Shown piece by piece: positions 9,952 to 28,511 of a stretch of 64,000 bases of DNA. Every line of letters starts with the position of its first letter. The stretch's first letter is position 1. Source of the DNA: Pseudomonas putida (GTDB taxonomy: Bacteria; Pseudomonadota; Gammaproteobacteria; Pseudomonadales; Pseudomonadaceae); NCBI RefSeq assembly GCF_001636055.1, contig NZ_CP011789.1, positions 4,092,001 to 4,156,000 of the forward strand, in the 5' to 3' direction. The translations under genes and the position numbers were made by a program. The notes beneath the pieces are model-generated. The model searched no databases. It was not told the DNA's origin and saw only the letters and a program-made list of their open reading frames with translations.

Positions 9952-11580
9952 CTAGTAGTCGACTTGCACCTCGTGCACGCCCGCGTTGGTGCGCCAATGG
10001 TCCTGCCGGGCTTCTGTCGGTTTCCCGACTATCCGGCCAATGCGCACAGGGGTTTGGGCGATTGCGCCGGCACCGGAGTCGATGAAGTCATCGTCCTGGT
10101 CGGTGAGCGCTGGGTTGAAGTCGCGCATCTGGTCCCACAGCGGACCGCGCAGCACAGAGACGTGAGCCCACAGGAAGCGGGCAGAAAGGGGGGACTCCAG
10201 TGCGTCGAGAATGCGCTTCTGCTTGTTGGTGCTGCTGTGCTCTTCCCCTACCCCACAGCCGGTGCCCTTGAGCGCTTGGCGCAGGATGGTGGGCACGAAG
10301 CCGCCCGGGCCGTTTGTCTCCACCACAACGCGCGGAATCTGGTACTTGATCACCAGGTCGCGAACTTGCTGGACCTGGCCACCTGTAATCCTGCTGGTTG
10401 CTTCGTCGAAGGTGGCGATCTCACCCTCAAGGGCCTTGCACACCTGCCAGTACAGCTGGCCGCGCGCGTCGGTGAGGATCAGCGAGAACGCCGACGCATC
10501 GGACTTGATCTTGCCCAGTGAGCAATCCCAGTAGGCGGCAGCGCCGACAATCTGGATGTTGCCCAGGTACATGGCGCATTCGCCGTTTGCGTAGCGAATC
10601 TCCGGCTCAAGGTCGTACGGGATCATGCGCGCCGGGTCGAGACGAACCTCGGTCACTGGCTTGCTGTGCAACTGGTACTGGCTGTCCCATTCGTTGATTG
10701 TCCGGGTCTCGCGGCGGCGCTTCTCCAGCTCCACCATGTCGAATCGGTTGGGCCAGGCGCTGCCGGCGTAGCAGTCAATCAGGGTTCCAGGGGCTTCCAG
10801 GAACTCCAGGGTGCCGTCAGCGTAGCGGTAGTCCTTGTCCTCCACCAGCACACGCGCCAGCTTGCCGATGCCGGAGAACACCACCTCGGGCCTGAACGGC
10901 ACGGCATAGGTCGTGTCCTTGGCCAGCTCGATGCGATGCTCGTCGGCGAACATGCGGATGGTCAGGCAATCCGCGCCCATCGCCTCCAGCTCGTCGTACA
11001 GGCTGTCGTGGGTGTGGGGTGTGCCGATGAATAGCTTGCTGCCGCCCGGCACCAGAATGTGTGTCTGCTCGCCCAGCCGGTACCGAAGCTTCTCCCGCGC
11101 CTCGGGCGTCTGGATGTTGCGTGGCACCTCCACGTCATCGTTCTGGCATTCGTCAGCACGGGCCGAGGTGACGTTCGACAAGATGCCCTTGGCGAACATC
11201 GAGGCGTTCCGGAAGTCGGCGGCGCCCTCAACCCACCACTGCTCGACTGTGCCCTGGTTGGGCGGCAGCAGGTGGCGGGTAAGCGGGTGGTTGCGAATGA
11301 CGTTTTGCGTGTCGCGGCTGGTCTTGTAGGCCGTGCCGTCGGCCTCGGACTGGTGCAGGATGCGAAACGTTGGGTTCCGGTAGTACCGCCAGGCGTTGTA
11401 GATCGCCAGGATGGTGGACTTGCCGAAGCCCCGGAAGCAACGCAAAACGGCCAGAGACCCTTTGGCCTCCAGCCATATCAGTGCCCTGACGTGAATGTCC
11501 GGCACCTCCCACCGCATCCGCTTTGACCAAATCAGGAAGAAGACCAGCAGGCTTACTTTCTTCTCCGGCTCATTGGGCAT
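9952..11580 (-). CDS. Terminase large subunit, T7 gp19-like
   Basis: 542 aa from ATG 11580. Walker A-like FRGFGKST is near residue 50, with an ATPase domain after it. The nuclease half has VVVETNGPGGF and a DDDFIDSGAGAI metal-site segment near the C-terminus. It cuts and pumps DNA into proheads at the connector encoded at 24928-26544. It overlaps the small-subunit gene by 11 bp. As in T7, it lies at the far end of the late genes, not before the connector as in most temperate phages. One copy of the 14-bp hairpin repeat (10016-10029) is inside its 3' coding part. Confidence 0.88.
   Translation of the reverse strand: MPNEPEKKVSLLVFFLIWSKRMRWEVPDIHVRALIWLEAKGSLAVLRCFRGFGKSTILAIYNAWRYYRNPTFRILHQSEADGTAYKTSRDTQNVIRNHPLTRHLLPPNQGTVEQWWVEGAADFRNASMFAKGILSNVTSARADECQNDDVEVPRNIQTPEAREKLRYRLGEQTHILVPGGSKLFIGTPHTHDSLYDELEAMGADCLTIRMFADEHRIELAKDTTYAVPFRPEVVFSGIGKLARVLVEDKDYRYADGTLEFLEAPGTLIDCYAGSAWPNRFDMVELEKRRRETRTINEWDSQYQLHSKPVTEVRLDPARMIPYDLEPEIRYANGECAMYLGNIQIVGAAAYWDCSLGKIKSDASAFSLILTDARGQLYWQVCKALEGEIATFDEATSRITGGQVQQVRDLVIKYQIPRVVVETNGPGGFVPTILRQALKGTGCGVGEEHSSTNKQKRILDALESPLSARFLWAHVSVLRGPLWDQMRDFNPALTDQDDDFIDSGAGAIAQTPVRIGRIVGKPTEARQDHWRTNAGVHEVQVDY
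10016..10029 (-). repeat. Late-operon hairpin repeat, copy 1
   Basis: Read on the minus strand: GTCGGGAAACCGAC, preceded by ATA. A 5-bp stem GTCGG/CCGAC closes a GAAA loop. This copy lies inside the terminase coding sequence, encoding IVGKPT. See copies at 14520, 23820, 27207 and 28498. Confidence 0.7.
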
Positions 11581-11905
11581 TGCTGCGCTGCATCCGCTCG
11601 ATGATGGCCAGGGCTTCGCGCTCAGCCGCCGCAATCTCGCCGTCGAGTTCGTCAATCTTTGCGCCAGCCTCTAGTGCTGGCTTCTGCCGGTTGAGGATAC
11701 CGGCGATGTTCACCACCTTGAGCAGCAGCGTCATGGTTGCGGCGGCGTTCTTCTTGCACCAGTACCTGTCGCCCCGCTCCTGCTGGGTCAGCTCGCCAGG
11801 GGCCTTGTCAGCACCAGGCCACTGGTGCGGATCAACCTCGGTGATCACCACCTCGCCCAGGCGCTCGGTCAGCGCCTGCAGGCGCACAATCTGGTCGTCA
11901 CGCAT
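11570..11905 (-). CDS. Probable terminase small subunit
   Basis: 111 aa, mostly helical (LQALTERLGEVVI, then AATMTLLLKVVNIAGIL, then a coiled C-terminal segment DELDGEIAAAEREALAIIERM). Size, helicity, and overlap with the large-subunit gene fit a T7 gp18-type DNA-recognition subunit. The identity rests mainly on position. It starts 1 bp after the stop of the large internal virion gene. Confidence 0.65.
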   Translation of the reverse strand: MRDDQIVRLQALTERLGEVVITEVDPHQWPGADKAPGELTQQERGDRYWCKKNAAATMTLLLKVVNIAGILNRQKPALEAGAKIDELDGEIAAAEREALAIIERMQRSNAQ

Positions 11906-11906
11906 A

Positions 11907-14474
11907 TCAGTCCCTCCCTACAGCGGCGCCCAGCGACGGGGCGCGATCTGGCAACGTCTCGCCCGGCTCCCACCAGAACTCCTGCCCGAAGTCCTTGCGC
12001 GCGCGCTGGCGCATCTTGCGCAGGTAGCCAGGCGAGAAGTACTCCTGCATCTGGTGAAAGATCATGTGGTCGGTGGCGGCCTTCGTGTACCAGAGGTTCG
12101 CGCCAGGCGTGTGGCTCTTGAGCAGGCGCACCAGGTTGCCCCCGGTGCTATCGACGTTTCCGTCAGCGGCAGTGCCCTTGAGCTTGAAGATGGATTCGAT
12201 ATCGCCTGCGATGGGGCCGCCAATGGCAGCCAGGCCCGACTGCCCGCCTTGGGTCTGGTCGCTGAACAGGAAGTCACCGTACAGGCCCAGCGAGCCACCC
12301 TTGAGGAACGCTGCGGCGCCGAAGCGCAGGCCGGGGACGCCAAGCAAACCATCATCCAGCATGTTCTTGGGGTCTCGCCCTGCAGCGATTTCACCAAGCT
12401 GAATGGCCATGCCGCCCAAGACGGTGGTGCTGGCCATCAAGGCGGTCATATAGCCAGCCCTGCCCCAGCCAGTTTCTTGGGCCATGGCTCGCCGGAAGTG
12501 CCGCATCATCATGGCGATCGAGAAGGACTTGAACTGCCAGAAGCTGCGCATCAACTCTCCGCCGACGTCACCCCGCTCCCAGCGGCCAAGCATGAAGGCC
12601 CGTTCACGGGCGCCTGGCTCGATGATCGCCATGTTCGTTTCGTCCAGCACGGAGCCAAGCAGCTTGGTGGCTGCCTGGTCCTTGAGACGCTTGGGCGTGG
12701 TCTTGAATTGCTGGGCCAACGCAGTCAGCTGGGCTTCGGGGATGCGGTAGATGCTTCCTGCCGTGAGCACCTCATCGCCAACCCCGCGCCAGTCTTCGGG
12801 TTGCGCCAAGCGCCATACAGCCCAGTCAGCATCACTTACGCCCATGGCCTGCAACCGCTTGGCGTCGGCGGGATCCATGCTGGCGAAGTCTTGGAAGCGG
12901 CGCGTCATGCTTCCGATGGTGTCCATCATGGTGGCGCCGAAAGCCCGCTGCGATCCGGCAGTCAAGGCGTTCATGCCAGAGACCTGCATCACCTTGCTGG
13001 CGGCGGTCTGCGAGAACTTGGCAATGCGACCCGAGATTGCCTCACTGGTGCCCAGGCCATCGGCGCCCCAGCGGTTCAGGCTACCGATCATCTGGTTGAG
13101 CCCGAGGCCGGCGCGCATAGCGAGCCTGCGGTCGGCGGCATTGGCCGGGTTCAGCATCCTGGCTTCGTTGGCGAATACCTGCATGACGGGCATGCCGTTC
13201 ATGGATGCGGTAAGGCCCAAGGTGCCCTGGTCGGTGACCGAGGTCAGCACCGCAGAGCCCAGGCGGCTGGCCACGTTCAGGGCTCGGTAGGTGTCGAAGC
13301 CGTTGGCGATGGCTGCCGAGGCTGGTGGCTCGCGGGTGCCGGCCACTTCCTCATACAGGTTCTCGATCCACTTTCGCTGCTTCTCCACCTTATCGCGGGC
13401 CTTCTCCCCCTTCTTTCCCTTGATGAGCAGGGCCTTGTCCATCTGCTGCTTCTGGCCTTCCTCAAGCCAGTAGCGCATTTGGTGGTTGGGATTGGGGCCC
13501 AGGGCTTCGACCAACGAAATGTCACGGGCGGCGCGGTCGATATGGCCGATCAGCAGCTCAAGCATGTTGCGCTCGCCATAGGCCTGCTGGGCGGCAATGA
13601 AGCTCTCGGCGTCCTTGTAGTGGATCTGGCGCGACTCGCTGCCACGGTTGGCGCGCATGCCGTTACCGGCCACGGCGCCGGGCTGCAGCTTGTTCAAGCC
13701 ACCGGTTGCCAGCGTTTCCCAGGCATGCCCCAAGAACTCCGTCAGTTGCTGGTCATTCATGGGGGAGCCGTCTTCGTTCATGTACTTGCCACGGTTCGCC
13801 CATTTCACGTGGTCGCTGACCCACTGATCTCGGTCGCGGGCCACCTTCACCTGCGAGTGATCCCGAGGCATGGCCCAGTCGTTCAGCTTGCCCACGTCGC
13901 CGCCCGCCCGGTTGAAGCGCAGGCGCAGCGATTCGGTCACGTCTTGGAACGACTTGGCCGCAGCCTTGGCCGCGGCGTCGCCGGAGTCCTCGCCGTGCAG
14001 CTCGCGCACTAGCGCAAGGTTGCCTTCCTTGTCCTGGAACAGCCCCATGAACTTGCCTTTGGTCACGTCGATTACGTCTAGCATGCGGCTCAGGGCTTCG
14101 TCGCGAATGGCGCGGGTAGACGACTCGATCGACTGGATGCCGCTCTTGCCGTCGCTGGTGAACGCCAGCATGCGGTCCAGGCCTTCCAATGGCTGGTCGG
14201 GGAAGCGAGCCATGTAGCTCGCGATGCGGTCGTGGGCCAGGATGGTGAGCGCAACGCGCTTCTTCTTGAGGTCGGCTTCGGCCACCAAGTCCTTGGCCGA
14301 CTTCTGGGCCGCCTCGGTCAGCCGATCGGCAGCGGACTTGGACTGCCACTGTGGGTCAGTCTGCGCCAGTTGCTTCATGTTCTGGCGAACGCGGTTCTCT
14401 ATGCCTTTGATTTCTTGCTGGGAGAGGGAACGGCCAATCGCCTGCGTGACGGCCTGGATACATTCGGGACGCAT
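11907..14474 (-). CDS. Large internal virion protein (T7 gp16-position)
   Basis: 855 aa from ATG 14474 (MRPECIQAVTQAIGRSLSQQEI); the open frame reaches 14588 but would cross the hairpin repeat. Long amphipathic helices dominate, with Ala/Gly-rich stretches and Met-rich segments in the second half. Third of three ejection-type proteins in T7 order (14, 15, 16). It is expected to leave the virion and help form the DNA channel across the cell envelope. No lytic transglycosylase motif is apparent, unlike T7 gp16. Shorter than gp16 (about 1,300 aa). Confidence 0.65.
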   Translation of the reverse strand: MRPECIQAVTQAIGRSLSQQEIKGIENRVRQNMKQLAQTDPQWQSKSAADRLTEAAQKSAKDLVAEADLKKKRVALTILAHDRIASYMARFPDQPLEGLDRMLAFTSDGKSGIQSIESSTRAIRDEALSRMLDVIDVTKGKFMGLFQDKEGNLALVRELHGEDSGDAAAKAAAKSFQDVTESLRLRFNRAGGDVGKLNDWAMPRDHSQVKVARDRDQWVSDHVKWANRGKYMNEDGSPMNDQQLTEFLGHAWETLATGGLNKLQPGAVAGNGMRANRGSESRQIHYKDAESFIAAQQAYGERNMLELLIGHIDRAARDISLVEALGPNPNHQMRYWLEEGQKQQMDKALLIKGKKGEKARDKVEKQRKWIENLYEEVAGTREPPASAAIANGFDTYRALNVASRLGSAVLTSVTDQGTLGLTASMNGMPVMQVFANEARMLNPANAADRRLAMRAGLGLNQMIGSLNRWGADGLGTSEAISGRIAKFSQTAASKVMQVSGMNALTAGSQRAFGATMMDTIGSMTRRFQDFASMDPADAKRLQAMGVSDADWAVWRLAQPEDWRGVGDEVLTAGSIYRIPEAQLTALAQQFKTTPKRLKDQAATKLLGSVLDETNMAIIEPGARERAFMLGRWERGDVGGELMRSFWQFKSFSIAMMMRHFRRAMAQETGWGRAGYMTALMASTTVLGGMAIQLGEIAAGRDPKNMLDDGLLGVPGLRFGAAAFLKGGSLGLYGDFLFSDQTQGGQSGLAAIGGPIAGDIESIFKLKGTAADGNVDSTGGNLVRLLKSHTPGANLWYTKAATDHMIFHQMQEYFSPGYLRKMRQRARKDFGQEFWWEPGETLPDRAPSLGAAVGRD

Positions 14475-14519
14475 GGGCTTGCTCCTGTGGGGATGGAGCA
14501 AGCCTATGGCTTGAGGAAA

Positions 14520-14533
14520 GTCGGTTTCCCGAC
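14520..14533 (-). repeat. Late-operon hairpin repeat, copy 2
   Basis: GTCGGGAAACCGAC on the minus strand, exact match to copies 1 and 3. It starts 3 bp after the stop of gene 14536-16464 and lies 46 bp before the next ATG. Confidence 0.75.
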
Positions 14534-14535
14534 GT

Positions 14536-16464
14536 TTAGAGGCCTCGCTGCAGGAAGCAAGCGGCAGCAGCGGCGAACCCACGGGCATCCTGCTGGGCGG
14601 CCTTGATATAGTCGTCGGCCTGGGCCAGCAGCTCGCGAGCGGAGACGGTCACGGGGCGGCCCTCTTCGTCCAGGGCGCCAGTCGGCAGCCGCATATCATC
14701 CACCCGGGTCATGATCTCGTCGGCGAGTTGAATGGTTGGGTCGGAATCGGCCTGGCTGGGTCCGGCCATATCGGCGGGATCGCGCTCTGGTGTCAAAGGT
14801 TTTGCCCCGGATGTAACGCTTTCAGCCTGTTTTGTCGTGTTCCCGGCCTGTTCTGTTACGCCATCAGCAGATTTTGTAACGGCCTTGGGTGAACCGATAT
14901 CCAACCCAGTCGGCTCAGCACGTGGCGCCAGTGCATCCTGCTCGGCAACCAGGCGGGCAATCTCAGCACGGGCAGCGGCTGCCAAATTCAAGCGTTCATT
15001 CCCCTGAGCCACACCGGCAGCCAGCGGCTTAGGCTCGAACCCCTGCATGATTTCGTCGGCGCGAGCCTCAATGCGCGGCTGCAGGCGCTCTGGTGTTTCA
15101 CCACGGGCCAGGGCTGCCAGCTCGCCACGGGATAGTTCGGCAGTACGGTTGCCCTGCAAGGCATCCTCCAGGGCCGTGACGCGCTCGGTAAGCTGCTGGC
15201 GCTCCTGCTCGATGGCTTGGCGCGCGGCCGTCTCGGCCTGCTTGCGGCTCATCCCCTCGCCCTGGGCCTGCTTGGCTCGCTCGCGGAACGTATCGTCCAG
15301 CCCATCCAGCGTGCGCTGCACACCGGCCAGGTCAGCGCGCACGTCGGCCACATTGGGCAGCACGCCCGGCAGGTCCTGCTCCAGTTCGGCACGCAGGGTC
15401 GGCTCCAGCTCAGCACGAGCCGTGGCAATGGCAGCCTCACGGGTCGGTGCTCGCGGCGTTGGCGTCTCGGTGCCGCGCAGGAATTCAGCACTATGAATGC
15501 TGTCCGGTACGGCCACCGGCTCGCCGCGGCTCAGCTGGCCGATGGCAGTGCGCAGCGCCTCCTGGTGGGACATGGCCGAACGCGGATCAACTGGCGCGCC
15601 TGGAGCGGTGTCCACGTCGAAGTGCTGGGTTGTGCGCTCGGTGAGCGCTGCATCCACCTGCTCGGTGGTTGGGCGGCGCATGCCGATACGGCCGATGCCG
15701 AAGAACGCCGCTCCCAGGATTGCATCGGTGGCAAGGGCTGTCCCGTCCATGACGCGATACTGCGCGGCCTGGGCGGTGTAGCCGCCACGCTCCAGCACAG
15801 CAGCAGTAGCGCCGCGACCGGCCATGCCAAGCCCAACGTTCGCGCCCACGGCAATGGCAGCATCTCCAAGAACCGGGCCAACGAAGCGAGCGGCTGGAAG
15901 CACAGCACCTACCCCCATGGTCCCGGCGTCGATCAGCCCCTTGAGCGTGGCGGTGTCTTCGTCGATCCCTTCCGCCATAGCCACACGCTTGCTGGAATAG
16001 CCGGCAGGCGCACCAGCAGCAACGGCAGCGCCGAGAGGGCCAGCGGATACAGCGCCAACCACAGTACGCGGCAACACGGCTGCAGCTTCACCCAGGATCT
16101 GCCCGACAACACCGACCTCAGTGGGATCAGGGCGCAGGTGCATCACCGATTCGGCAGTCTCACGCCCGATCCTGCTGGCCTCTTCCTCGCCGAACTCGCG
16201 CTGGGCCTGGGTCTGCCCTTCCTCGAACTCGGGGAAGTACGATGCACCGATCGACAGGTCGGACTCGATAGCGGCGCTCCCCAGTTGCAGTGCCGCGGTC
16301 TGCACGGTACGTGCAGCCTCGATGCCACCGCGAACAAGGCCAGTGCCGAATGCACCAAGGGCGCCAGTGAAGGCGCCCGGAGAAAGCTTCTCTGTTGTCC
16401 GGTCCAGGCGCTGGTCCTGGCTGGCTACCTCACCTTCATCAACCATTCCGTCGAGCCAGCTCAT
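14536..16464 (-). CDS. Internal virion protein (T7 gp15-position)
   Basis: 642 aa. After an acidic start (MSWLDGMVDEGEVASQDQ) come Gly/Ala-rich hydrophobic stretches about residues 110-220, then long coiled helices with many Arg/Glu (about 350-520) and a Ser/Thr-rich region near 540-600. This composition is typical of podovirus ejection proteins. It overlaps the upstream gene by 4 bp. No enzyme motif is seen. Confidence 0.6.
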   Translation of the reverse strand: MSWLDGMVDEGEVASQDQRLDRTTEKLSPGAFTGALGAFGTGLVRGGIEAARTVQTAALQLGSAAIESDLSIGASYFPEFEEGQTQAQREFGEEEASRIGRETAESVMHLRPDPTEVGVVGQILGEAAAVLPRTVVGAVSAGPLGAAVAAGAPAGYSSKRVAMAEGIDEDTATLKGLIDAGTMGVGAVLPAARFVGPVLGDAAIAVGANVGLGMAGRGATAAVLERGGYTAQAAQYRVMDGTALATDAILGAAFFGIGRIGMRRPTTEQVDAALTERTTQHFDVDTAPGAPVDPRSAMSHQEALRTAIGQLSRGEPVAVPDSIHSAEFLRGTETPTPRAPTREAAIATARAELEPTLRAELEQDLPGVLPNVADVRADLAGVQRTLDGLDDTFRERAKQAQGEGMSRKQAETAARQAIEQERQQLTERVTALEDALQGNRTAELSRGELAALARGETPERLQPRIEARADEIMQGFEPKPLAAGVAQGNERLNLAAAARAEIARLVAEQDALAPRAEPTGLDIGSPKAVTKSADGVTEQAGNTTKQAESVTSGAKPLTPERDPADMAGPSQADSDPTIQLADEIMTRVDDMRLPTGALDEEGRPVTVSARELLAQADDYIKAAQQDARGFAAAAACFLQRGL

Positions 16465-18476
16465 TTTGCCCTCACAATCATCGGTTCGTTGGTCTTGGGG
16501 TCAACCTGGATGCGGCCAGCGTTCAGCAGGTAGTACAGCCCGTCTTTCCCAGGCACTGGCGAAAGCGGCATGTCTTCGAGCTGGCCCAGTGGAAACTCGG
16601 TGCGCTTGGCCAAGCCTTCCAGCTCGATATCGACCACCTTGTCGAACAGCTTGTCGGACATTCCGTAGGGCTTGACGACCTTCTGCCCGGCGCGCTCGGT
16701 GATGCCACCGGTAACGAGCTCGACAGCCTTCTCAGTGGTCTTGCGGTCCGGGTCATCGCCCTGCTCATACGATTTTCCGGTCGATACCGCTGTGCTTGCG
16801 TACAGCGCCTTGAAGCCTTGATACGCCTGCTCTCGCTGCGTGGTGCCCGGCATCAGCGCCGTTCCCACATGGGCATCGAACGCTGCGCGCATCTTCTCTT
16901 CCTTGGGCATCGGCACGGACTTGTCGGCCAGGATCTTCTGGCCCTGCAGCAGCATCTTGGGCACGTCGGTGCCGTCAGCGCCTTTCAGGTCCTTGAACTT
17001 GGCCATGCCAGCAAGCACGGTGATCGGCTGGTCAGCCGCCAGCGGCTTGATGGCCGCCGCGTAATCGGCGCCAGTTGGCGCAGCAGCGGCCAGCGTGCCG
17101 AACACCTGCAGCTTGGTAGCGTCGTCAGCCTGTGCCAGTACCGCGGTCAACATCGCCTGCTCGCCGGGCTTCCACGGACTGCGCGCGACCTCAGGGCCGT
17201 AGGCCTTGCGCATCGAGTTCACCACGTCGTAACGCTGGCCCAACTGTTCGGCCAGCTTGGCCTGGCCTTCCGGAGTGCCGATGCCGCTGATATCCAGCGG
17301 CGGCACGTCTTGCCCGGTGCGCATCGCGTTGAAGGTCAACGGGTCGTCGCGCATCATCTTGAGGTTTTTGTCGACGGCGGTCTGCAGACGGTTCAGGTTG
17401 CTGATCTGTGCGACAGAGCCGCCAGTCTCGGCGATCTGGCGGCGCTTGCTGTCCAGGTACTGCTGCTGCTCGAGCATCGGCTTGCGCAGTAATGCCTGAG
17501 ACTCGTTCATTTCCTGCACGCGGGTGTTGTACTCCCCCGCCATGGATGTTCCGGAAAGCGCAGAACGCCAGCGCTGCTGGTCTGCCACGGTCGGCGGAAT
17601 GCCAGTGGCCGCCTGCCTGTCCATCTGCGCCAGTACGCGCTCGGCCTTCATCTCGCGCATTTCGGCCTGGCGCTGCTGATGCTCTTTCACCTGGTAGATC
17701 CTGCCAGTGACGGTGTTCAGCAACTGGTTGCGCTTCTCCGGATCGAGCTTGTTGGCGTAGAAGCCATCGGCAGCGGTGAGGTCGTGCTCGATCTGTTGCA
17801 GGCTGCCCAGGCCATCGCGGGCCTGAACCACGCGCTGAGTGGCCTGGGTTGTCCAGTTCGCGTCCTTGGCCTCCTGCTTCTTGGCTGCCCACATCTCGCC
17901 GTACGCCAGACGCCCAGCCATGTCCACGTCTTCGCCATCCAGGCGGGCGTTCAGCTTGCCGATATCGGCGCCAGGCATGGCGGCTTCTTTGCCAAGCATG
18001 TCCAGCCGGGTGGCCATGTCGGCCTTGGCGGAATCAGCACGGGCGCCGATGGCCAGCTTGCGCACCCCTTCCTGACCGGCCAGCTGCAGCCGCTGCTGGG
18101 CCAGGCCCACGCCTTCCATCTCAGCTTCGGACAGCCCAGTCACCTGCAGCGGCTCCAGCTTCGCCACCGCGCCCTGGTAGGCTTCCTCCAGCTTGTCGTG
18201 GCTCAAGGTGCCCAGTCGCACCTGCTCAGCCAAATCACTGTTGATGGTGCTAATCTGCGTCTCGCGCTCGAACAAGGCGTTGCTGGCCTTCACCCGGGCG
18301 AGCGCCTGGTCTTCCTTTTGCCGCTGATCGAGAACGCCCAGCGCTGTGCGCTGGACTGTGTCGGCGACCTGCTGTGCCCCGCGGGACTGCAGGCTTGGGT
18401 CCATGGTGATAACGCGGTTCTGCTGGGCTTCGGGCAGAACGCGGGCCACTGCTGGGCCAATCGGGATGGTTGCCAT
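16461..18476 (-). CDS. Internal virion protein
   Basis: 671 aa from ATG 18476, overlapping the preceding stop as ATGA; the frame open to 18536 is not used. Almost entirely alpha-helical and rich in Gln, Ala, Lys and Glu (QQRLQLAGQEGVRKLAIG, LEGLAKRTEFPLGQLEDM). Position between the gp14-like and gp15-like genes marks it as part of the ejected internal core. No family is identified beyond that. Confidence 0.6.
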   Translation of the reverse strand: MATIPIGPAVARVLPEAQQNRVITMDPSLQSRGAQQVADTVQRTALGVLDQRQKEDQALARVKASNALFERETQISTINSDLAEQVRLGTLSHDKLEEAYQGAVAKLEPLQVTGLSEAEMEGVGLAQQRLQLAGQEGVRKLAIGARADSAKADMATRLDMLGKEAAMPGADIGKLNARLDGEDVDMAGRLAYGEMWAAKKQEAKDANWTTQATQRVVQARDGLGSLQQIEHDLTAADGFYANKLDPEKRNQLLNTVTGRIYQVKEHQQRQAEMREMKAERVLAQMDRQAATGIPPTVADQQRWRSALSGTSMAGEYNTRVQEMNESQALLRKPMLEQQQYLDSKRRQIAETGGSVAQISNLNRLQTAVDKNLKMMRDDPLTFNAMRTGQDVPPLDISGIGTPEGQAKLAEQLGQRYDVVNSMRKAYGPEVARSPWKPGEQAMLTAVLAQADDATKLQVFGTLAAAAPTGADYAAAIKPLAADQPITVLAGMAKFKDLKGADGTDVPKMLLQGQKILADKSVPMPKEEKMRAAFDAHVGTALMPGTTQREQAYQGFKALYASTAVSTGKSYEQGDDPDRKTTEKAVELVTGGITERAGQKVVKPYGMSDKLFDKVVDIELEGLAKRTEFPLGQLEDMPLSPVPGKDGLYYLLNAGRIQVDPKTNEPMIVRAK

Positions 18477-19427: not shown

Positions 19428-19436
19428 GGGGAGCCC

Positions 19437-21599: not shown

Positions 21600-22195
21600 C
21601 AGAAAATCCCCCAGCCATTGCCGAAGCGCGAGGCCAGCAGGTGCTCATTGCCCAGGGTCTGCGGTGGGTCTTCTTGACCATCGGCTGCCTTGGCCTGGCG
21701 GAACAGTTGCGCCAGCTTCTGCTCGCGGCTGTCGCGCTCCGATGTGGACTGAGTCACCGGGTAAGCCAGAACGGCGGCCATGGCAGCAGTCATGAGGTCA
21801 ACCAGGTGCGAATCCCACGTCGCCTCCACCTCGTTGCGGAACACATAGCGCAGTTCAAGCACCATGGTGTCGGCCTGGATGGTCCGCCGCTCAACCAGGT
21901 AGTCGATCTGGCAGCCCCCCGTGCCGACCTCCAGCACACGCAGGCAATCGGCGGGCAGCTCGAACGCGCTGGAGTAGCCGAAGGGCGGAGCTTCTGCCAA
22001 CGGCGCCAGAACCACGCGCTTTATGCAGCAGTTCCAGGGATGGGCGCGCAGGATGCTGTCACGCTGGGAGGGATAGAGGTTCGCGCACAGCTTGGCGCGG
22101 TCCAGGTTCTGCGAGTCCTGGAAGTCGTTGATGGTCTGAGCACCCAGCATCAAGAGCGCGTTGGAGCAGATCGAAACACCGGTTGCCATTGCCAT
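21599..22195 (-). CDS. Tail tubular protein A / head-tail adaptor
   Basis: 198 aa. ICSNALLMLGAQTINDF, then LYPSQRDSILRAHPWNCCIKR and FELPADCLRVLEV form the well-known signature of T7 gp11-type adaptors. It bridges the connector ring and the nozzle. First gene after the terminator at 22210-22237, so its supply depends on read-through or a separate promoter. Confidence 0.85.
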   Translation of the reverse strand: MAMATGVSICSNALLMLGAQTINDFQDSQNLDRAKLCANLYPSQRDSILRAHPWNCCIKRVVLAPLAEAPPFGYSSAFELPADCLRVLEVGTGGCQIDYLVERRTIQADTMVLELRYVFRNEVEATWDSHLVDLMTAAMAAVLAYPVTQSTSERDSREQKLAQLFRQAKAADGQEDPPQTLGNEHLLASRFGNGWGIF

Positions 22196-22209
22196 GCCTT
22201 GTGTCTCCG

Positions 22210-22237
22210 GAAAAAAAGACCGGGGCGCTAGGCCCCG
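22210..22237 (-). terminator. Rho-independent terminator after capsid block
   Basis: On the minus strand a 7-bp stem CCGGGGC/GCCCCGG with a 5-nt loop is followed by seven U. It separates the capsid-side genes from the tail genes. T7 has its main terminator at the same relative place (after gene 10), where it reduces tail-gene expression. Confidence 0.85.
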
Positions 22238-22268
22238 GCAAGTGAAACGACGTCCATGTCAGCCCTGA

Positions 22269-22733
22269 TCAGTTCTGCTGGGCGTACTGCGCAACCAGGG
22301 TGATGACCTGGCCGGCCTGCAGGGCTGCACCAGCCACTACCGAACGCAGCTCGCTTTGGTCGGTTGCCTGGCCGGGAGCCACAACCGCCACGTCGAACAG
22401 CGCGCCGTTGGCGAACTGCGCCTCGGCGGTGGCGCTGCCTGCGGTGGCTACAGAGGTGGCAGCCAGATACCGTGCCGGGACCACCGGGTCGCCCAGGTTG
22501 AGGGTGGAAGAAGCCGCGCCTGCGTTGCAGTAGATCTTGGTGGTTGGCATCAGGCGCGCACCGAAGGGCAGGAAGCCCCACGAGATGTATTCGCCGATGC
22601 CTGGGCCGCCAGATGCGGGCACGGTGTAGGTGCTGACGAACACTTGAATGTCGCCGCCCTGCAGGTTGGGTTTGGTGAGGGTCTGCGGGTAAGCCGTGCG
22701 GGCCGCCGCCAGAGAACCGTTGCCGTTTGCCAT
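22269..22733 (-). CDS. Probable capsid decoration or head-fibre protein
   Basis: 154 aa, Ala/Gly/Thr-rich and beta-rich (GGDIQVFVSTYTVPASG, LNLGDPVVPARYLAAT), no basic runs. It directly follows the major capsid gene and precedes the terminator, the usual place for a highly expressed capsid accessory protein. The role is inferred from context. Confidence 0.5.
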   Translation of the reverse strand: MANGNGSLAAARTAYPQTLTKPNLQGGDIQVFVSTYTVPASGGPGIGEYISWGFLPFGARLMPTTKIYCNAGAASSTLNLGDPVVPARYLAATSVATAGSATAEAQFANGALFDVAVVAPGQATDQSELRSVVAGAALQAGQVITLVAQYAQQN

Positions 22734-22778
22734 GGTGTTACTCCTGAATGGGGTTGAGGACGAGAACAGCGAAGACCC

Positions 22779-23645
22779 TTACGGGTCGTTCGCAGCGATC
22801 TCGACGACCTTCTCTTCTTCCACGCGGACAGCGCCCAGGCTCTGCTTGGCGTAGATCCGGACGTTGAAGCCCTTGCCAGGATCCTTGCCCACCTCGGTGG
22901 TAATGTCCTTGCCCTTGCCAAGCACCACGCCAGACTTGGTCCAGGCGTAGCAGAATCGGGTGCTCCCGGTCTTCGGCAGGCGCTCAGAAGGAATCCAGCG
23001 GAAGCCCATCCAGGTGCCCTTGAGCGTGCCTTCCTGGAGCATCTTCACGCTCATGAAGTCCGCGCTGGTCAGGGTGGTGTCAGCCAGAATGTCCACCAGG
23101 GCGTTGGCGTGGTAGGCCATGTACAGTTCTTCGCCGGCTTCCTCGTCAGCCTCGTTCAGGCGGAAGATCTTCTTGGCCTGGATGATCTTGGCCTTGGTCA
23201 GGCCGGTACCACCCACGGCGATCTTCTGCGAAGCAGGAAGGATCACGCTGCCGGTAGCGCTCGAGCGAGCGGGACCACCGAAGGCCGAGATAATGACGTC
23301 GTCCTTGGCGCGGTTCATGCCAGAAACCATGGCCTGGACGTAGTCCGAGGTGGGGTCAACCAGCATGCGGATCTTGTCCTGGTCGTCGACCATGTCGCCG
23401 TCTTCCCAGTCGTAGAGGTCCACGAACCGGGTGCTGTGCGGTTGGTCATTGATCGGCGTGTCGCCGTGGCGCTGGGTGCGGCGTTGCGCGGTGCGCTGGC
23501 CGAGGCGGTTCACGGACTTGGACATGCCCACGATGTTGGGCTCGATGGTCACCGCCCCTTCGAAGCGGGACATTTTCTGCTGCGCGACGTGCTTGAAGTT
23601 GTCAGCGAACTGCTGCACGAACGCTTCGGTGATTTGCTGGGACAT
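22779..23645 (-). CDS. Major capsid protein
   Basis: 288 aa from ATG 23645 with GGAG 8 nt before; the frame to 23726 is upstream non-coding. MSQQITEAFVQQFADNFKHVAQQ, then VDLYDWEDGDMVDDQDKIRML and FRWIPSERLPKTGSTRFCYAWTK are typical of the HK97-fold podovirus capsid family (Phage_capsid_2). It follows the scaffold gene, as in T7. No maturation protease is nearby. Confidence 0.85.
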   Translation of the reverse strand: MSQQITEAFVQQFADNFKHVAQQKMSRFEGAVTIEPNIVGMSKSVNRLGQRTAQRRTQRHGDTPINDQPHSTRFVDLYDWEDGDMVDDQDKIRMLVDPTSDYVQAMVSGMNRAKDDVIISAFGGPARSSATGSVILPASQKIAVGGTGLTKAKIIQAKKIFRLNEADEEAGEELYMAYHANALVDILADTTLTSADFMSVKMLQEGTLKGTWMGFRWIPSERLPKTGSTRFCYAWTKSGVVLGKGKDITTEVGKDPGKGFNVRIYAKQSLGAVRVEEEKVVEIAANDP

Positions 23646-23819
23646 ACGATGCACTCCAATGCGGATTCGGGATTGCCTTGCCGGGTGTCCGCTGGGCGGG
23701 CCGGGATTCCTGGCGTGCATCGGCATTGCTGCGCCTGGGGCGTTCCGGGTATCTGCGCGCCACCGCAGGCCGGCCCGGTATTGCTACCGGGATGCCTGTG
23801 ATGGTCGGAGTTGCGGGGT

Positions 23820-23833
23820 GTCGGTTTCCCGAC
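23820..23833 (-). repeat. Late-operon hairpin repeat, copy 3
   Basis: GTCGGGAAACCGAC on the minus strand, preceded by AAATA. It sits in the 204-bp gap between scaffold stop and capsid start, where it could be part of the capsid mRNA leader. Confidence 0.75.
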
Positions 23834-23849
23834 TATTTGGCTGGAGCGC

Positions 23850-24686
23850 TTACGCGCCAAAGGTGCGGGAGGCTGGCTTGTTGTACTTGGCTGCGTACAA
23901 CTGATCGAGCTGGCCTTGGATTTGGGCACGCTTGGGATCGTGCGCCGGGAGGTCCTGCAACTGCTGGCGAAGCTCAGCAGTCTTGACGTTGAAGTCCTGT
24001 TCGCTCACCACGCCCTGACTGATCAGCGTGTCTTCGGCCAGCTCCTTGCCGATGTTGGCGGTGAATGCGATGAAGTCAGGGTCGTTGCCATACTTCGCCA
24101 TCAGCGCCTGGAAGTTGCCGGGCTGACCCTCGGGGCTCGCGAACGACTCGGCGGCGCGATACGAGGCCTGCACTCCTGACTTGTAGGTTTGGTCATCAGG
24201 CCATACCGCCTTGAGCGCGGTGGTGCAGTCCTGCTGGCTGAGCTGCACGCCGCCTTCGACCAAGCCAGGCGCCGCCTTCAAGTACTCGCCGATCACATAC
24301 TCGACCTGGGCGTTGGTCATGCCCTTGGCATGGGCCCCCTTGAGGAACGACTGAGTGTTCTCGTCGGCCTTGAACTCTTCCCAGTTGAAGCCCTCGACGC
24401 CTTCAAGCTTGACGCTGTACTCGCCGGCGTCCTTGGGTGGTGCATCGCCAGTGCCCAGGCGCGTCTCCAGCTGCTTGTAGCCCTCGGCAATCTTCCGCGA
24501 CGATGCTTCAAGATCAAGGCTGCCGTCCTCCTTGTTGGTGCGGTACTTCTCGGGGAGCCAGTCGGTATTGGCGCCGCCTGCCATGACAGAGGCCGCTGGT
24601 GGTGCAGCGCCGCCGCCCGGGTCGCCGCCATCGCCTGCTTCGTTGCACAGGAAGTGGCCGAGACGGCCATGGATGAACAGGTTCAT
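23850..24686 (-). CDS. Capsid assembly scaffolding protein
   Basis: 278 aa, acidic and helical, ending in a basic amphipathic segment. LPEKYRTNKEDGSLDLEASSRKIAEGYKQLE is followed by YSVKLEGVEGFNWEEFK and LAEDTLISQGVVSEQDF. This resembles T7 gp9-type scaffolds. Placement between connector and capsid genes supports the call. It is expected to leave the prohead before packaging. Confidence 0.8.
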   Translation of the reverse strand: MNLFIHGRLGHFLCNEAGDGGDPGGGAAPPAASVMAGGANTDWLPEKYRTNKEDGSLDLEASSRKIAEGYKQLETRLGTGDAPPKDAGEYSVKLEGVEGFNWEEFKADENTQSFLKGAHAKGMTNAQVEYVIGEYLKAAPGLVEGGVQLSQQDCTTALKAVWPDDQTYKSGVQASYRAAESFASPEGQPGNFQALMAKYGNDPDFIAFTANIGKELAEDTLISQGVVSEQDFNVKTAELRQQLQDLPAHDPKRAQIQGQLDQLYAAKYNKPASRTFGA

Positions 24687-24688
24687 CG

Positions 24689-24931
24689 TTATTCCTCTTC
24701 GGGTTGGTCTTGCACGCCATTGGCGCGGTTGATGCGGCGCAGTATGTGGTCGAGCACCTCGCGGTGCCCGGCCTGCAGGTAGGTGCGCAGGACAGCGTCA
24801 ATGCCGCCCACGGTTACTGCGTTCTTGCTGAACTTCTGTACCAGTTGATCAAGCACAATCACGCCCTCGGCGTGCTGCTCGAAGACGCGCTTGAACATGT
24901 CGTCCAGTTGCTCGGATGTGTACTGAGTCAC
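24689..24931 (-). CDS. Small Bbp19-like phage protein
   Basis: 80 aa, helical (LDDMFKRVFEQHAEGVIVLDQL, then GHREVLDHILRRINRAN). The order of F-x2-VF, G-x2-VLDxL and a C-terminal HxxVxxxI helix resembles the Bbp19 domain found next to connectors in podoviruses. It overlaps the connector gene by 4 bp. Function is unknown. Confidence 0.55.
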   Translation of the reverse strand: MTQYTSEQLDDMFKRVFEQHAEGVIVLDQLVQKFSKNAVTVGGIDAVLRTYLQAGHREVLDHILRRINRANGVQDQPEEE

Positions 24932-26544
24932 GCTGCTGCCCCCGGTGCTTGTTTAAGTGCGGCCTGGCCAACCATCTGCTGCATGGCCTGCTCTTGCTGC
25001 TGCTCCTGCGCTGCCTGCATTGCCTGCGCCCGCTCGTCACGCACCCGCTGAACGTCAGCCTTGCTGCGCATGACCTCGGACGGAACGCCCAGGGCTTCAC
25101 CACGGAACCGTGCTGCGGCATCGAAATCGACGTTGTCCATGGCGTCAGGCTGGCCACCGGCTTCGGCCTGGGCCTTGGCAGCCATGGCGCACCCGGCGAC
25201 GTACTGGTCGATTGCGGTGACCTCTTCCAGCTTCTGCGCCCTGGCCAGCGGCGACAGGTAGCGGACGGTGTACGGGCGACCGGCCAGCGACTCTGGCGGC
25301 TGACCCAAGATCCCGGCGCGCATGGCGATGCCGAAGCAGCGCTCGATCAGTGGTTGCAGGTACTCGGTCTGCAGGCGGCCATAGACCGGGCCCAGCAGCT
25401 GACGGATCAGGCTGACCCGGGCGTGCACCTCGGTTGCGGTCATTGCTGGGCCGTTCTGGTCGCGCAGTTGGTCGGCCATCATCACCTTGCGGATGGCCAT
25501 CTGCAGGCGAACGATGCGGCTATCGCTGTAGTTGAAGTTCGATCCGCTCTGCAGTGGCTTCATGCTGTCGACCGAGTTGGCCACGATGATCTTGCGCGGG
25601 CCGACCTTCACGGTGCGAGGGTTGAGCACCCCATCATCTTCGGCGATCCACATGCCAGCGATAGCCAGGTCAGCCGCGGCCATGTCCATGCGTACCATCT
25701 CGTTGAGCATGCGCGCATCGGGAAGGGCCTCGGCCACCGGCCCGGTGGCATACACGCTGTCCGGAATCATCATCCAGCGCGGGACTACCACCGGCATCTC
25801 GTGGTAGCCCGACTCGCTTACCAACTTCTTGGCTACCACCTCGACCTTGCAGCTGGCGATCGGCATGTTCTTGGCCAGGCGGGCACCGACCATGTGGGTG
25901 GTGCGCGGGTAGATGGCGTGGACGAACTCGACCAGATCCTGCGGCTTGTCCTTGGCCAGCTTGCGGGTAGTCTCGCTCACGTTGCCTTCGCCGAACTCGT
26001 TGATGGCCTGCTCGGCTGTCAGCTTGTACGAGCGGTAAACGGTATCGATCCTGCCGCCCGGCTTCGATGCCGAGCAGTAGACGCCGGAGATCGGCCACAG
26101 GTCGAAGCTGTAGCCGCCCTTCTCCCGGTCCTGGTCGATGTGCAGGGCGAACCAGCCAGCGCACACCACGTCGAGCAGGCCCTCGAATGCGGCCGAGTCG
26201 AAGTTCGATGCGTGGATGTTCTCCCAAATGATCTCGGCGGAATCGCCAAGCCAGCGGCGTTCGTCCTCGGTGGAGTTGGCAACGTCCATGCCGAACCACA
26301 GCGAGTTGGCCGGCGTCATGCCGGCCTGCACGGACGATGACAGCGTGCGTGCGGCGTCGGTGGTGGTGCCGTCGAAGATCCGCGCCTTGCGGTTCAGCGC
26401 CTCTTGAGCGCTCATCATCTCGCAATAGAACCCATTGCCACGCACCGGGTAGGTGTGGTCGTAGCAGTCGCGCCAGACCTGCTCATGCGGGCTGCGCAGC
26501 GACTTGAGCGTGCTCAGTGTCTTGCAGATCTGGTCAGCGTTCAT
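24928..26544 (-). CDS. Portal / head-to-tail connector protein
   Basis: 538 aa. Signature segments LKSLRSPHEQVWRDCYDHTY, FDGTTTDAARTLSSSVQAGMT, WEN/FALHIDQ and ATEVHARVSLIRQLLGP define the T7 gp8-type connector family (PF12236). The C-terminus is Gln-rich (EQQQEQAMQQM). It forms the dodecameric DNA entry ring. Usual length for this family (about 510-560 aa). ATGA overlap with the gene before it. Confidence 0.92.
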   Translation of the reverse strand: MNADQICKTLSTLKSLRSPHEQVWRDCYDHTYPVRGNGFYCEMMSAQEALNRKARIFDGTTTDAARTLSSSVQAGMTPANSLWFGMDVANSTEDERRWLGDSAEIIWENIHASNFDSAAFEGLLDVVCAGWFALHIDQDREKGGYSFDLWPISGVYCSASKPGGRIDTVYRSYKLTAEQAINEFGEGNVSETTRKLAKDKPQDLVEFVHAIYPRTTHMVGARLAKNMPIASCKVEVVAKKLVSESGYHEMPVVVPRWMMIPDSVYATGPVAEALPDARMLNEMVRMDMAAADLAIAGMWIAEDDGVLNPRTVKVGPRKIIVANSVDSMKPLQSGSNFNYSDSRIVRLQMAIRKVMMADQLRDQNGPAMTATEVHARVSLIRQLLGPVYGRLQTEYLQPLIERCFGIAMRAGILGQPPESLAGRPYTVRYLSPLARAQKLEEVTAIDQYVAGCAMAAKAQAEAGGQPDAMDNVDFDAAARFRGEALGVPSEVMRSKADVQRVRDERAQAMQAAQEQQQEQAMQQMVGQAALKQAPGAAA

Positions 26545-26744
26545 GCCCCGAGGGTCCTTTTTCCTTGCTCAATGACGGTGCCCGCGGCGCCTGCCTGGGA
26601 AAGCAGGCTGCTGCGCTGCTTCTTGGCGCGCGCTGCGGCGGTTTCCTCGTTGGCCTTCTTGGCTGCTTCGTCAGCCGCTTTCTGTGCGGTGACAGCAGGG
26701 TCTTCGGCCTGGACAACCTTGGGCTTGCTTGGCTTCGATCCCAT
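26541..26744 (-). CDS. Small charged phage protein before connector
   Basis: 67 aa. A basic, Ala/Lys/Glu-rich helical stretch (QKAADEAAKKANEETAAARAKK). It overlaps the connector start. Short proteins of this kind are common before podovirus connectors and may be internal or assembly factors; no role can be assigned. Confidence 0.55.
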   Translation of the reverse strand: MGSKPSKPKVVQAEDPAVTAQKAADEAAKKANEETAAARAKKQRSSLLSQAGAAGTVIEQGKRTLGA

Positions 26745-26749
26745 GGCGG

Positions 26750-27151
26750 TTACTCCTTGCTGTAGGCGGCTGGCAGATCCGGCACGAGCCAGCCTTCTTC
26801 GGTCAGCACGGCTTGCTGGCGCTGGGCAGTGACTGGCGCCTTCTCGGTGCTGGGCTGGGGCTTGGCTTCTGGCGCTGGGTCGGGGGTTGGGTCGGCAGGC
26901 TTGGTGAAGGGCTCGCCACCAGCGTTCAGACGTTCGGCCTCGGCCTGTGCGGCTTCCTTGGCTCCTTCGCCAGTGGCCACGAAGTCGCTGAACCAGTCGT
27001 TGGCGGTGGCTGACCAGATGCGCTGGCGCCCGCCGCCATTGTGCTTGGCGGTGTACTCCGGCTCCTTGGCCTCGATGGTGGTCTGCTCGGTGCTGGGCTG
27101 GGTCAGCGGCTGGCCAGGCGTCTGCACCTGGAGATTGTCGGGGGCTGGCAT
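26750..27151 (-). CDS. Phage hypothetical protein, Pro/Thr/Gln-rich
   Basis: 133 aa with two low-complexity Pro-rich segments (residues about 1-30 and 75-105) around a folded-looking centre (NGGGRQRIWSATANDWFSDFVATG). The end is EEGWLVPDLPAAYSKE. First gene after the lysis cassette, 5 bp before the next cistron. Unknown function. Confidence 0.55.
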   Translation of the reverse strand: MPAPDNLQVQTPGQPLTQPSTEQTTIEAKEPEYTAKHNGGGRQRIWSATANDWFSDFVATGEGAKEAAQAEAERLNAGGEPFTKPADPTPDPAPEAKPQPSTEKAPVTAQRQQAVLTEEGWLVPDLPAAYSKE

Positions 27152-27206
27152 GGGTGGGGCCTCGGGGATTGGTATCAGTGAGGCCCCAGCATCATGGGGG
27201 GAAGGC

Positions 27207-27220
27207 GTCGGGTTCCCGAC
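27207..27220 (-). repeat. Late-operon hairpin repeat, copy 4
   Basis: Minus-strand GTCGGGAACCCGAC, a 6-bp stem variant. It begins at the last base of the Rz stop codon (AAATAG), in the 68-bp gap before gene 26750-27151. Confidence 0.75.
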
Positions 27221-27669
27221 TATTTCGACAATGGGCAGGCGGCTTTGACTGTATCGATCAGCGCGTTGAGCTGCCTGATGGCGTCGTCTCCGTCTGGTCC
27301 GACGGAGATAATTCGTTCAGCAGCCGCTGGGTCAAGTTCGGCTCGCGCTTCTGGAGCATCCACGCCGGGATTGGCAGGGGCTCGCAGTGCGCAGTTGGTG
27401 GCGAGGACTGACAGCCGACGCTTGCCAGAAGCGATATCAACACGAAGGCCTGCATTGATCTTGTTCGCACGCTCTCTCTCCTGGGTGTGCTGGGTGTCGA
27501 GCTGGGCCAGCAGTTTGATGGTGTTCTTGCGGCTCTTCTCAGAAGCCACCAATTCTTCGTTTTGGCGCGTTTTCTCTCGAAGCGCAGCCTTGGTATGGTC
27601 GAGCGCCCAAAACGCTCCCAGCGAAGCGACAAGAAGCGCAGCGATGATCGCCAGCAGGTACTTGGTCAT
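27220..27669 (-). CDS. Rz: Rz inner-membrane spanin
   Basis: 149 aa from ATG 27669, which overlaps the endolysin stop (ATGA). One N-terminal membrane anchor (YLLAIIAALLVASLGAFWAL) is followed by a long coiled-coil periplasmic domain (REKTRQNEELVASEKSRKN and onward). Spanins link the two membranes and disrupt the outer membrane after endolysin action. It contains the complete Rz1 gene in another frame. Confidence 0.85.
   Translation of the reverse strand: MTKYLLAIIAALLVASLGAFWALDHTKAALREKTRQNEELVASEKSRKNTIKLLAQLDTQHTQERERANKINAGLRVDIASGKRRLSVLATNCALRAPANPGVDAPEARAELDPAAAERIISVGPDGDDAIRQLNALIDTVKAACPLSK
27258..27455 (-). CDS. Rz1: Rz1 outer-membrane lipoprotein spanin, embedded in Rz
   Basis: 65 aa from ATG 27455, wholly inside Rz in another reading frame. 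MQAFVLISLLASVGC is a lipoprotein signal ending in the lipobox-like SVGC, followed by a short Pro-containing mature part (SSPPTAHCEPLPIPAW). Embedded Rz1 genes with a lipobox and Pro-rich body are the classic lambda arrangement. The -3 Ser is not the most common lipobox residue. Confidence 0.8.
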   Translation of the reverse strand: MQAFVLISLLASVGCQSSPPTAHCEPLPIPAWMLQKREPNLTQRLLNELSPSDQTETTPSGSSTR

Positions 27670-28178
27670 CGTTGAGCCTCGATGCACTTGGCGTGACGCT
27701 CAAGCTGCCTTGTCCAAACCCCAGCACAACGCCTGTTGCCTGGCGTGCTGCAGTCGAAGCCAGCGGCGAAGCGGTACTTGAGCAGGTCGTGGCATGCCTG
27801 CGGGTAGTCACGGGCCAGCAGGTCACGGCGCATCGAGCTGGCACGCCAGGTGCCCATGCCGTACTGGCCGACGAAGTCCATGTAGAGATCGAACTCTTCC
27901 TGGTGCAACTTCACGCCCGGAAGGCTGGCGGCAAACTCGCGCTCGGCCTGGCTGTTGAGGGCGCGGGCCAGCACTTCGGCGCGCTCGCGGGTGATCGTGT
28001 CGCCCATGCGGACGCGGGTGCCGTCTTCCCAGCGTGTCGAGCCATGACCGATGGTGGGCACGTCGCCCTTGGTGGGGATGACGGCCACGTCGGTGAAGCC
28101 CTCATGCGCCTGCCATGCTGCGAAGCCTGCAGCGCTCATGGTCAGCAGGGTCACCGCTACCCGCTGCCGGGCGCTCAT
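27666..28178 (-). CDS. SAR endolysin, GH24 lysozyme
   Basis: 170 aa from ATG 28178. A weakly hydrophobic N-terminal segment (VAVTLLTMSAAGFAAWQA) fits a signal-arrest-release domain, so export does not need the holin. The catalytic region is HEGFTDVAVIPTKGDVPTIGHG with Glu in HEG and the Asp and Thr of GDVPT. The distance Glu to Asp is 4 residues longer than in T4/P22 lysozymes, as in a known phage subgroup. It cuts the glycan strands of peptidoglycan. Overlaps holin and Rz by ATGA on both sides. Confidence 0.85.
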   Translation of the reverse strand: MSARQRVAVTLLTMSAAGFAAWQAHEGFTDVAVIPTKGDVPTIGHGSTRWEDGTRVRMGDTITRERAEVLARALNSQAEREFAASLPGVKLHQEEFDLYMDFVGQYGMGTWRASSMRRDLLARDYPQACHDLLKYRFAAGFDCSTPGNRRCAGVWTRQLERHAKCIEAQR

Positions 28179-28420
28179 CGCTTGCACTGCTCGATCAATG
28201 CCGCGATCCGGGCATCACTCTCCCGCGACTCGCGCCTGTCCTTGCGGATCTGGAACCAGGTGTTGACGGCGAAGCCCAGGGCAGCCAGGACAACGCCGAT
28301 GATGCCGATCCAGTTGGCCTGGGACAGGAAACCGGTGAGCCCCGCTCCCGCACCTGCCCACATGCCCTTGGTCGCCACCGAGGCGCCGACTGCTTCTACG
28401 ATGCCTTCCGGTTTGGACAT
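28175..28420 (-). CDS. Holin, P21 S-like (pinholin type)
   Basis: 81 aa with two hydrophobic segments (about 12-31, ATKGMWAGAGAGLTGFL, and 37-57, IGIIGVVLAALGFAVNTWF) and a charged tail (QIRKDRRESRESDAR). This is the class II holin design. With a SAR endolysin next to it, a pinholin that collapses the membrane potential is expected. GGGAG precedes the ATG. Confidence 0.85.
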   Translation of the reverse strand: MSKPEGIVEAVGASVATKGMWAGAGAGLTGFLSQANWIGIIGVVLAALGFAVNTWFQIRKDRRESRESDARIAALIEQCKR

Positions 28421-28442
28421 GGCTGAACTCCCGCTGAAAAAG

Positions 28443-28464
28443 AAAACCCCGCTCGGTGGCGGGG
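28443..28464 (-). terminator. Terminator before the lysis cassette
   Basis: Minus-strand stem CCCCGC/GCGGGG with a 6-nt loop, followed by TTTTC. It lies between the candidate late regulator region and the holin, the place of lambda tR', where late antitermination would act. Confidence 0.75.
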
Positions 28465-28497
28465 CATCGATGACACGCAGGGTCGGTGCATGGGGGT

Positions 28498-28511
28498 GTC
28501 GGGTTCCTGAC
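28498..28511 (-). repeat. Late-operon hairpin repeat, copy 5
   Basis: Minus-strand GTCAGGAACCCGAC, starting at the last base of the TAG stop of the 56-aa gene, with the same CGAAATAG lead as copy 4. One stem position is changed (G to A, still a G-U pair possible in RNA). Confidence 0.65.

Follow-up and report, generated by a model that had tools for sequence, protein, structure and literature searches.

The late operon of a Pseudomonas putida prophage carries the same 14-nucleotide repeat five times, and this locus raises the question of what such a repeat does along the late genes of a phage. The window analysed here (64,000 nucleotides of contig NZ_CP011789.1, in a genome of 5.8 Mb) contains a prophage of the temperate podovirus type with a T7-like virion module, which comprises terminase, internal virion proteins, tail tubular proteins, capsid, protease, head-tail adaptor, spanin and endolysin. 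The prophage also encodes an integrase, replication genes and a CII-like regulator, its late genes are coded on the minus strand, and a megablast search of the phage collection gave no near DNA match. The initial annotation had described the repeat as a small hairpin and offered three readings: an RNA-processing or stability signal, a binding site of a phage late regulator, or a recombination marker. On the basis of sequence comparisons, we consider it quite likely that the repeat forms the operator part of a set of related late promoters of phages, which would be switched on by a phage helix-turn-helix (HTH) protein, with masking of the translation start at some sites; promoter activity, the start sites and the identity and action of the factor are what we infer.

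The five copies lie where they had been reported and all point the same way. Those at 10016, 14520 and 23820 are exact, the one at 27207 has one mismatch and the one at 28498 has two. The repeat reads GTCGGGAAACCGAC on the minus strand, which is the coding strand of the late genes. The earlier description of the copies as lying at or near gene ends needs correction for the one at 10016, which is inside the terminase frame about 60 nt before the stop; the coincidence with a TAG stop codon holds for 27207 (Rz-like open reading frame (ORF), 27220-27687) and for 28498 (ORF of 56 aa, 28511-28681, read by eye). In the whole genome the exact 14-mer occurs 3 times, always in the window, and the backward control gave 0 matches. 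A second box, absent from the initial annotation, lies 13 nt beyond the 14-mer, and the repeat forms one half of a bipartite element, AAATA-GTCRGGANNCCGAC-N13-NANN(A/C)T. With at most one mismatch, this pattern has 5 matches in the whole genome, all perfect and corresponding to the five reported copies, and the backward pattern used as a control has 6. Exact 14-mers and perfect bipartite matches are found only at these copies; there is no spread over the host chromosome of the kind typical of REP elements, from which the repeat had rightly been distinguished, and the proposed check of its density on the host chromosome detected no copies elsewhere.

To define the element, we used viral contigs, in which the exact 16-mer TAGTCGGGAAACCGAC is present in at least 120 stretches; these gave 97 unique exact-motif sites, 24 of them mutually dissimilar. 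Among the matches listed, an A and a T four positions apart occur in the hexamer that follows 13 bases in 91 of the 97 unique sites and in 21 of the 24 dissimilar ones, against at most 14 and 3, respectively, at any other offset from 0 to 24. A wider set of 85 dissimilar near-matches has A...T at offset 13 in 62 cases and in at most 6 at the other listed offsets (5-21). Of the 23 near-matches that lack it, several look like chance hits in coding sequence or are palindromic copies read in reverse; in two, the box begins one base sooner. The 62 sites, which were selected for the A and the T, give the logo AAATA-GTCGGGANNCCGAC-N13-NANN(A/C)T; the upstream AAATA is variable in some lineages, and some enteric-type relatives have TAGAAT, TAAAAT or TAAACT as the hexamer. 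A and T are the two most conserved positions of the sigma70 -10 box. The 13-nt spacing places the A and T of the box at these positions and the dyad over the -35 position, and, judged by sequence, a putative binding site takes the place of a consensus -35, at or near that position, and is followed by a sigma70-type -10. Among the 120 loci listed in the first scan, matches without a -10 box (the seven loci L007, L036, L040, L047, L058, L094 and L104, contigs sharing one sequence that contains the 16-mer, as well as L016 and L068) were taken as chance or unrelated.

The repeat could also act in RNA, as a hairpin that affects the processing or stability of mRNA or resembles boxB: its arms are near-complementary, and some divergent lineages change both of them (GCCGG/CCGGC, GACGG/CCGTC), double changes such as the first of these agreeing with an operator and a hairpin alike. 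However, an intact stem in all copies was not observed. Stem-breaking variants are frequent and tend to follow the site class, as for the T.T mismatch in GTCGGGAAACCGTC before the internal virion gene and for GTCAGGATTCCGAC and GTCAGGAAACCGAC in enteric-type relatives. An A.C mismatch occurs in GTCAGG...; T.T and A.C mismatches are common, although our scan demanded 4 of 5 stem pairs. The centre of the dyad varies (AA, AC, AT, TT, TC), even within one phage, and together with the stem-breaking variants this suits an imperfect operator better than a hairpin. Moreover, the spacing to the sigma70-like box is fixed over variable sequence, and in the start-masking classes (see later in the text) the 5' arm of a second hairpin overlaps or abuts the -10-like box. 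The constant 13-nt gap to the A...T hexamer and the stem-breaking variants thus argue for late promoters with a 14-bp operator in place of the -35 hexamer and weaken the processing reading of the initial annotation, which we now regard as highly improbable.

The copy inside the terminase gene allowed DNA-level and protein-level conservation to be separated. In 31 of 46 terminase sequences (15 were dropped because the frame as cut held a stop), the three fourfold sites within the operator have zero entropy, and they are the only invariant ones, the 102 other fourfold sites having a median of 1.36 bits and a minimum of 0.41. Immediately outside the operator, the third base of a threonine codon is free to vary (1.38). 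The codon at the operator centre specifies Lys, Ile or Asn (25/5/1), while its neighbours do not change in DNA sequence. In the -10 box, the T is a third codon base at which C would be synonymous, and 31 of 31 sequences have T. Selection at this site acts on the nucleic acid, because the synonymous positions of the operator and the -10 box are frozen while the centre codon changes the amino acid.

For the conservation analysis, relatives were picked by capsid and by terminase (best 80 of each); 154 of the 160 fetched loci were used, and the scan required at least 4 of 5 stem pairs and at least 10 of 14 identities. The relatives carry the element after the HTH gene, after Rz, before the capsid gene, before the internal virion protein gene and inside the end of the terminase gene. 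In total, the coding strand has 318 sites and the opposite strand 11, of which 8 are perfect palindromes; one mononucleotide shuffle gave 24 sites. In 36 T7-like contigs (31-85 kb) we obtained 146 matches versus 9 for the backward control, with 2 to 6 matches in 32 of the 36; some one-mismatch entries in this list, and in that of the other phages described below, are probably chance. The matches are all on one strand per contig, except for the reverse reading of one G190 site. At the score cut, no element was detected in the distant relatives L207, L208, L215, L216, L227, L230 and L231, and L233 has one weak element; a 17-mer is present in 4 of 149 genomes of the genus. The same borders are clearly conserved in sister phages, as the initial annotation had asked to see, and the copies keep these borders and are frozen inside the terminase gene, which speaks against a recombination marker. 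Of the three initial readings, these comparisons support that of a site bound by a late regulator of the phage. In one locus, L041:11317 (minus), the element is opposed in direction to the flanking spanin-like and small-terminase-like genes.

The likeliest trans-acting factor, judged from its linkage to the elements, would be the small HTH protein encoded at 28692-29030. Its structural model has an HTH fold with a pLDDT of 93-98 over residues 41-100. The family was found by a profile search in 35 of the 36 T7-like contigs, four of which had supplied profile sequences, and among five genomes compared it is the only regulatory-looking family common to all. Two lineages with an altered operator also have an altered HTH, and the N-terminal part of the protein varies and is nearly missing from one enteric-type member. 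G219 (the record of L307) is a T7-like contig with three elements and no detectable HTH homologue. T7 promoters occupy a similar set of late borders. T7-type RNA polymerase was found in 0 of 33 phage records and in 0 of 3 genomes, the T7 control being positive, and sigma70 region 2 in 0 of 33 phage records, with 10 of 14 control genomes positive. Promoters of a T7-type polymerase or of a phage sigma factor were rejected, since neither protein was found in these searches; the element differs from T7-type promoters in its sigma70-like box. In the literature, lytic T7 relatives have their own polymerase (PMC5923468) and T7-like prophages have been found by their RNA polymerase (PMC10134795); the passages of PMC10386132 covered here hold no promoter information.

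The name of the PHROG, 'transcriptional repressor', suggests another role for the HTH protein, in which the element would be the operator of a repressor silencing the late promoters in the lysogen. The operator does cover the -35 region; C.Kpn2I, too, probably represses a promoter by lying over its -35 (PMC6237814). However, without a -35 these promoters would be very weak and leave little to repress, and the HTH gene directly precedes the first late site, which makes a repressor very unlikely.

In several site classes, we predicted a second hairpin: its 5' arm runs from the -10 box roughly as far as the expected start site, and its 3' arm covers the next Shine-Dalgarno sequence or start codon. 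At most 14 sites per class were folded, and the arm was shuffled 10 times. The median predicted energy needed to open the start, in read-through RNA versus RNA begun at the promoter, was 20.5 versus 6.8 kcal/mol for the internal virion class (13 of 14 sites exceeding all shuffles), 14.0 versus 3.0 kcal/mol for the enteric-type site upstream of terminase (14 of 14), 14.0 versus 5.2 kcal/mol for the after-Rz class (13 of 14) and 19.2 versus 9.8 kcal/mol for the lysis-side class (11 of 14). Class C, from other phages described below, gave 12.1 versus 4.9 (5 of 5). Masking was absent at the terminase (2/14), capsid (1/14) and first sites (0/14), and some small classes were mixed. Among the window copies, those of the internal virion (16.2 versus 6.0), after-Rz (13.6 versus 3.7) and terminase (10.7 versus 6.4) sites are above the shuffles, and those of the capsid and holin sites are not. 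Covariation in the internal-virion-site hairpin did not exceed the shuffles, because its arms hardly vary. The predicted masking would independently place the transcription start inside the hairpin. Before the capsid gene, we noted a long leader (23645-23820, up to a putative start) in which a hairpin and a GATACCCG stretch are conserved in relatives and the start is not masked.

At up to three mismatches the 14-mer has 11 matches in the window against 6.3 expected, and 6 of 100 shuffles reach as many, so that the count alone is unremarkable. An intrinsic-terminator-like hairpin lies a few bases beyond the expected start at 27 of the 35 first sites. One is also present at 13 of the 22 enteric-type sites that precede terminase, and there it is identical with the masking hairpin. 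Such terminators would fit antitermination of the Q/AlpA type, with the dyad as a loading site from which the protein rides the polymerase through terminators and the A...T box as a -10 or a sigma-dependent pause element. The HTH gene is in the position of Q, and AlpA acts from an element inside the promoter with the terminator downstream (PMC7969949; PMC9371919). However, few terminators are found elsewhere (0/48 capsid, 0/25 internal virion, 1/25 after-Rz, 0/21 lysis-side and 3/61 terminase sites; the count covers unique sites with a box, and the simple finder does not allow loops as long as that of the class D terminator, which was recognised by eye). An element without a -35 should need help for initiation itself, the enteric-type member with fewer than 10 residues before the HTH core leaves little room for a Q-like ring, and the AlpA motif is GGGACGN5GGTA between -35 and -10. 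We consider antitermination unlikely as the function of the element, and the HTH protein might antiterminate too.

We propose that each late promoter would consist of the upstream AAATA, the 14-bp imperfect dyad, which is centred at about -32.5 and replaces the -35 hexamer, and then, after 13 variable bases, a sigma70-type -10 with A at -11 and T at -7. After induction, the HTH protein would bind the dyad, probably as a dimer, and bring the host sigma70 RNA polymerase to five starts in the late region, serving holin/lysis, the gene after Rz, the major capsid, the internal virion protein and the tail fibre. At sites with a start codon close by, read-through transcripts from upstream would fold so as to mask that start, whereas RNA begun at the late promoter would lack the 5' arm and be translated. 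The features are listed in Table 1. Elsewhere in the window, a RecE-like exonuclease gene on the opposite strand (36251-37930) is also present in the otherwise different phage record G168, and an Rfam scan gave a tRNA as its sole match at the gathering score.

Table 1. Promoter elements, associated predicted hairpins and selected genes in the window
Feature	Position	Strand	Remarks
Element 1 operator GTCAGGAACCCGAC	28498..28511	-	before putative holin
Element 1 -10-like GACCCT	28479..28484	-	fixed 13-nt spacing; start site expected ~28472
Element 1 intrinsic-terminator-like hairpin and T-run	28437..28465	-	directly downstream; seen at 27/35 first sites
Element 2 operator GTCGGGAACCCGAC	27207..27220	-	first G is last base of the TAG stop of the Rz-like ORF
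Element 2 -10-like GATGCT	27188..27193	-	start site expected ~27181
Element 2 hairpin	27155..27188	-	predicted; 5' arm 27180-27188 overlaps -10/start site, 3' arm 27155-27163 masks next start (27151)
Element 3 operator GTCGGGAAACCGAC	23820..23833	-	before major capsid gene
Element 3 -10-like GACCAT	23801..23806	-	start site expected ~23794
Element 4 operator GTCGGGAAACCGAC	14520..14533	-	before internal virion protein gene
Element 4 -10-like TAGGCT	14501..14506	-	start site expected ~14494
Element 4 start-masking hairpin	14476..14504	-	predicted; arms 14495-14504 and 14476-14485; start codon 14474
Element 5 operator GTCGGGAAACCGAC	10016..10029	-	within terminase large-subunit frame, before tail-fibre gene
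Element 5 -10-like GACCAT	9997..10002	-	start site expected ~9990
HTH protein, candidate late activator	28692..29030	-	112 aa; putative start codon; PHROG 16553, 'transcriptional repressor'
Terminase large subunit	9952..11655	-	element 5 operator inside its reading frame
tRNA-Cys gene	44582..44655		

Several known systems resemble this arrangement in part. As with the late promoters that depend on activators of the Mu C and P2 Ogr kind, one phage has several copies, on the strand that codes for its late genes. The C-dependent late promoters of Mu (Plys, PI, PP and Pmom) are served by one phage activator and the host RNA polymerase and have non-consensus -10 and -35 sequences (PMC4461284). The likeness lies in several putative late promoters on one phage, the non-consensus -10 and -35 and the expected use of the host polymerase, the phage activator being here a candidate; the C sites are upstream of -35 (overlapping it at mom), whereas here the 14-bp dyad fills the -35 position. 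For gene e of T4, the promoter DNA encodes the 5' arm and only read-through RNA is masked, soc, 49 and I-TevI being further masked starts (PMC3014915). The same arrangement is predicted here at four T7-like site classes and in class C. However, the T4 late promoter is TATAAATA, whereas the sites described here join an operator to a sigma70-like -10, and a single phage has the device at several of its gene borders. AlpA and Q share with our system the HTH protein, a binding element within the promoter and a terminator after the first promoter; they differ in the element and its position, and here the -35 is absent and the element repeats along the operon, mostly without terminators. The C proteins of restriction-modification systems are small HTH dimers with sites at or near -35 (PMC6237814), and C proteins are in the structural match list of the HTH model. 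C-boxes consist of two dimer sites and control restriction-modification genes, whereas no such link was seen here. The 14-mer was not found in open-licence PMC papers, and broader literature searches gave, in the parts of the texts they covered, no paper recognised as describing the element. The elements would thus form a group of related late promoters in phages, probably with an activator of their own and, at several sites, with predicted built-in start masking.

Finally, the element is also present in other Pseudomonas phages, judged siphophage-like by eye from their reading frames: each record of class C or D has a single perfect element, except G151, which has two. No HTH homologue was detected in 15 single-copy records, a further record, G169, giving one weak match (E 0.0013), and a single-sequence HTH search gave 1 weak match in 36. 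Seven host-genome records with such copies also have no HTH homologue (G039 and G179 look like one genome, and the G178 copy is without the box). In class C, a conserved ORF of 61 aa with no PHROG match, near an integrase-like gene, has a perfect element 46 nt before its start in 9 of 9 loci (L072:12214-12460 and L345-L352). In class D (L050, L059, L080, L082, L100, L101, L102 and L121), the element is followed by a strong intrinsic terminator and then by a gene for a small membrane protein or a KilA-N-like gene; in L100 it lies, by eye, between tail genes I and J. Perhaps these single copies in viruses without the HTH protein are borrowed or eavesdropping promoters. A rather speculative extension is that they would activate a gene for interference or exclusion once a co-resident T7-like phage makes its late activator, acting as a phage-to-phage sensor; the response of satellite P4 to P2 is comparable.

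If correct, this model would explain how late genes are switched on in widespread temperate T7-like phages in which no T7-type RNA polymerase was detected, and would provide a compact, highly specific promoter together with a candidate activator. Moreover, the single copies in other phages may constitute a sensor between competing phages, a possibility that is directly testable.
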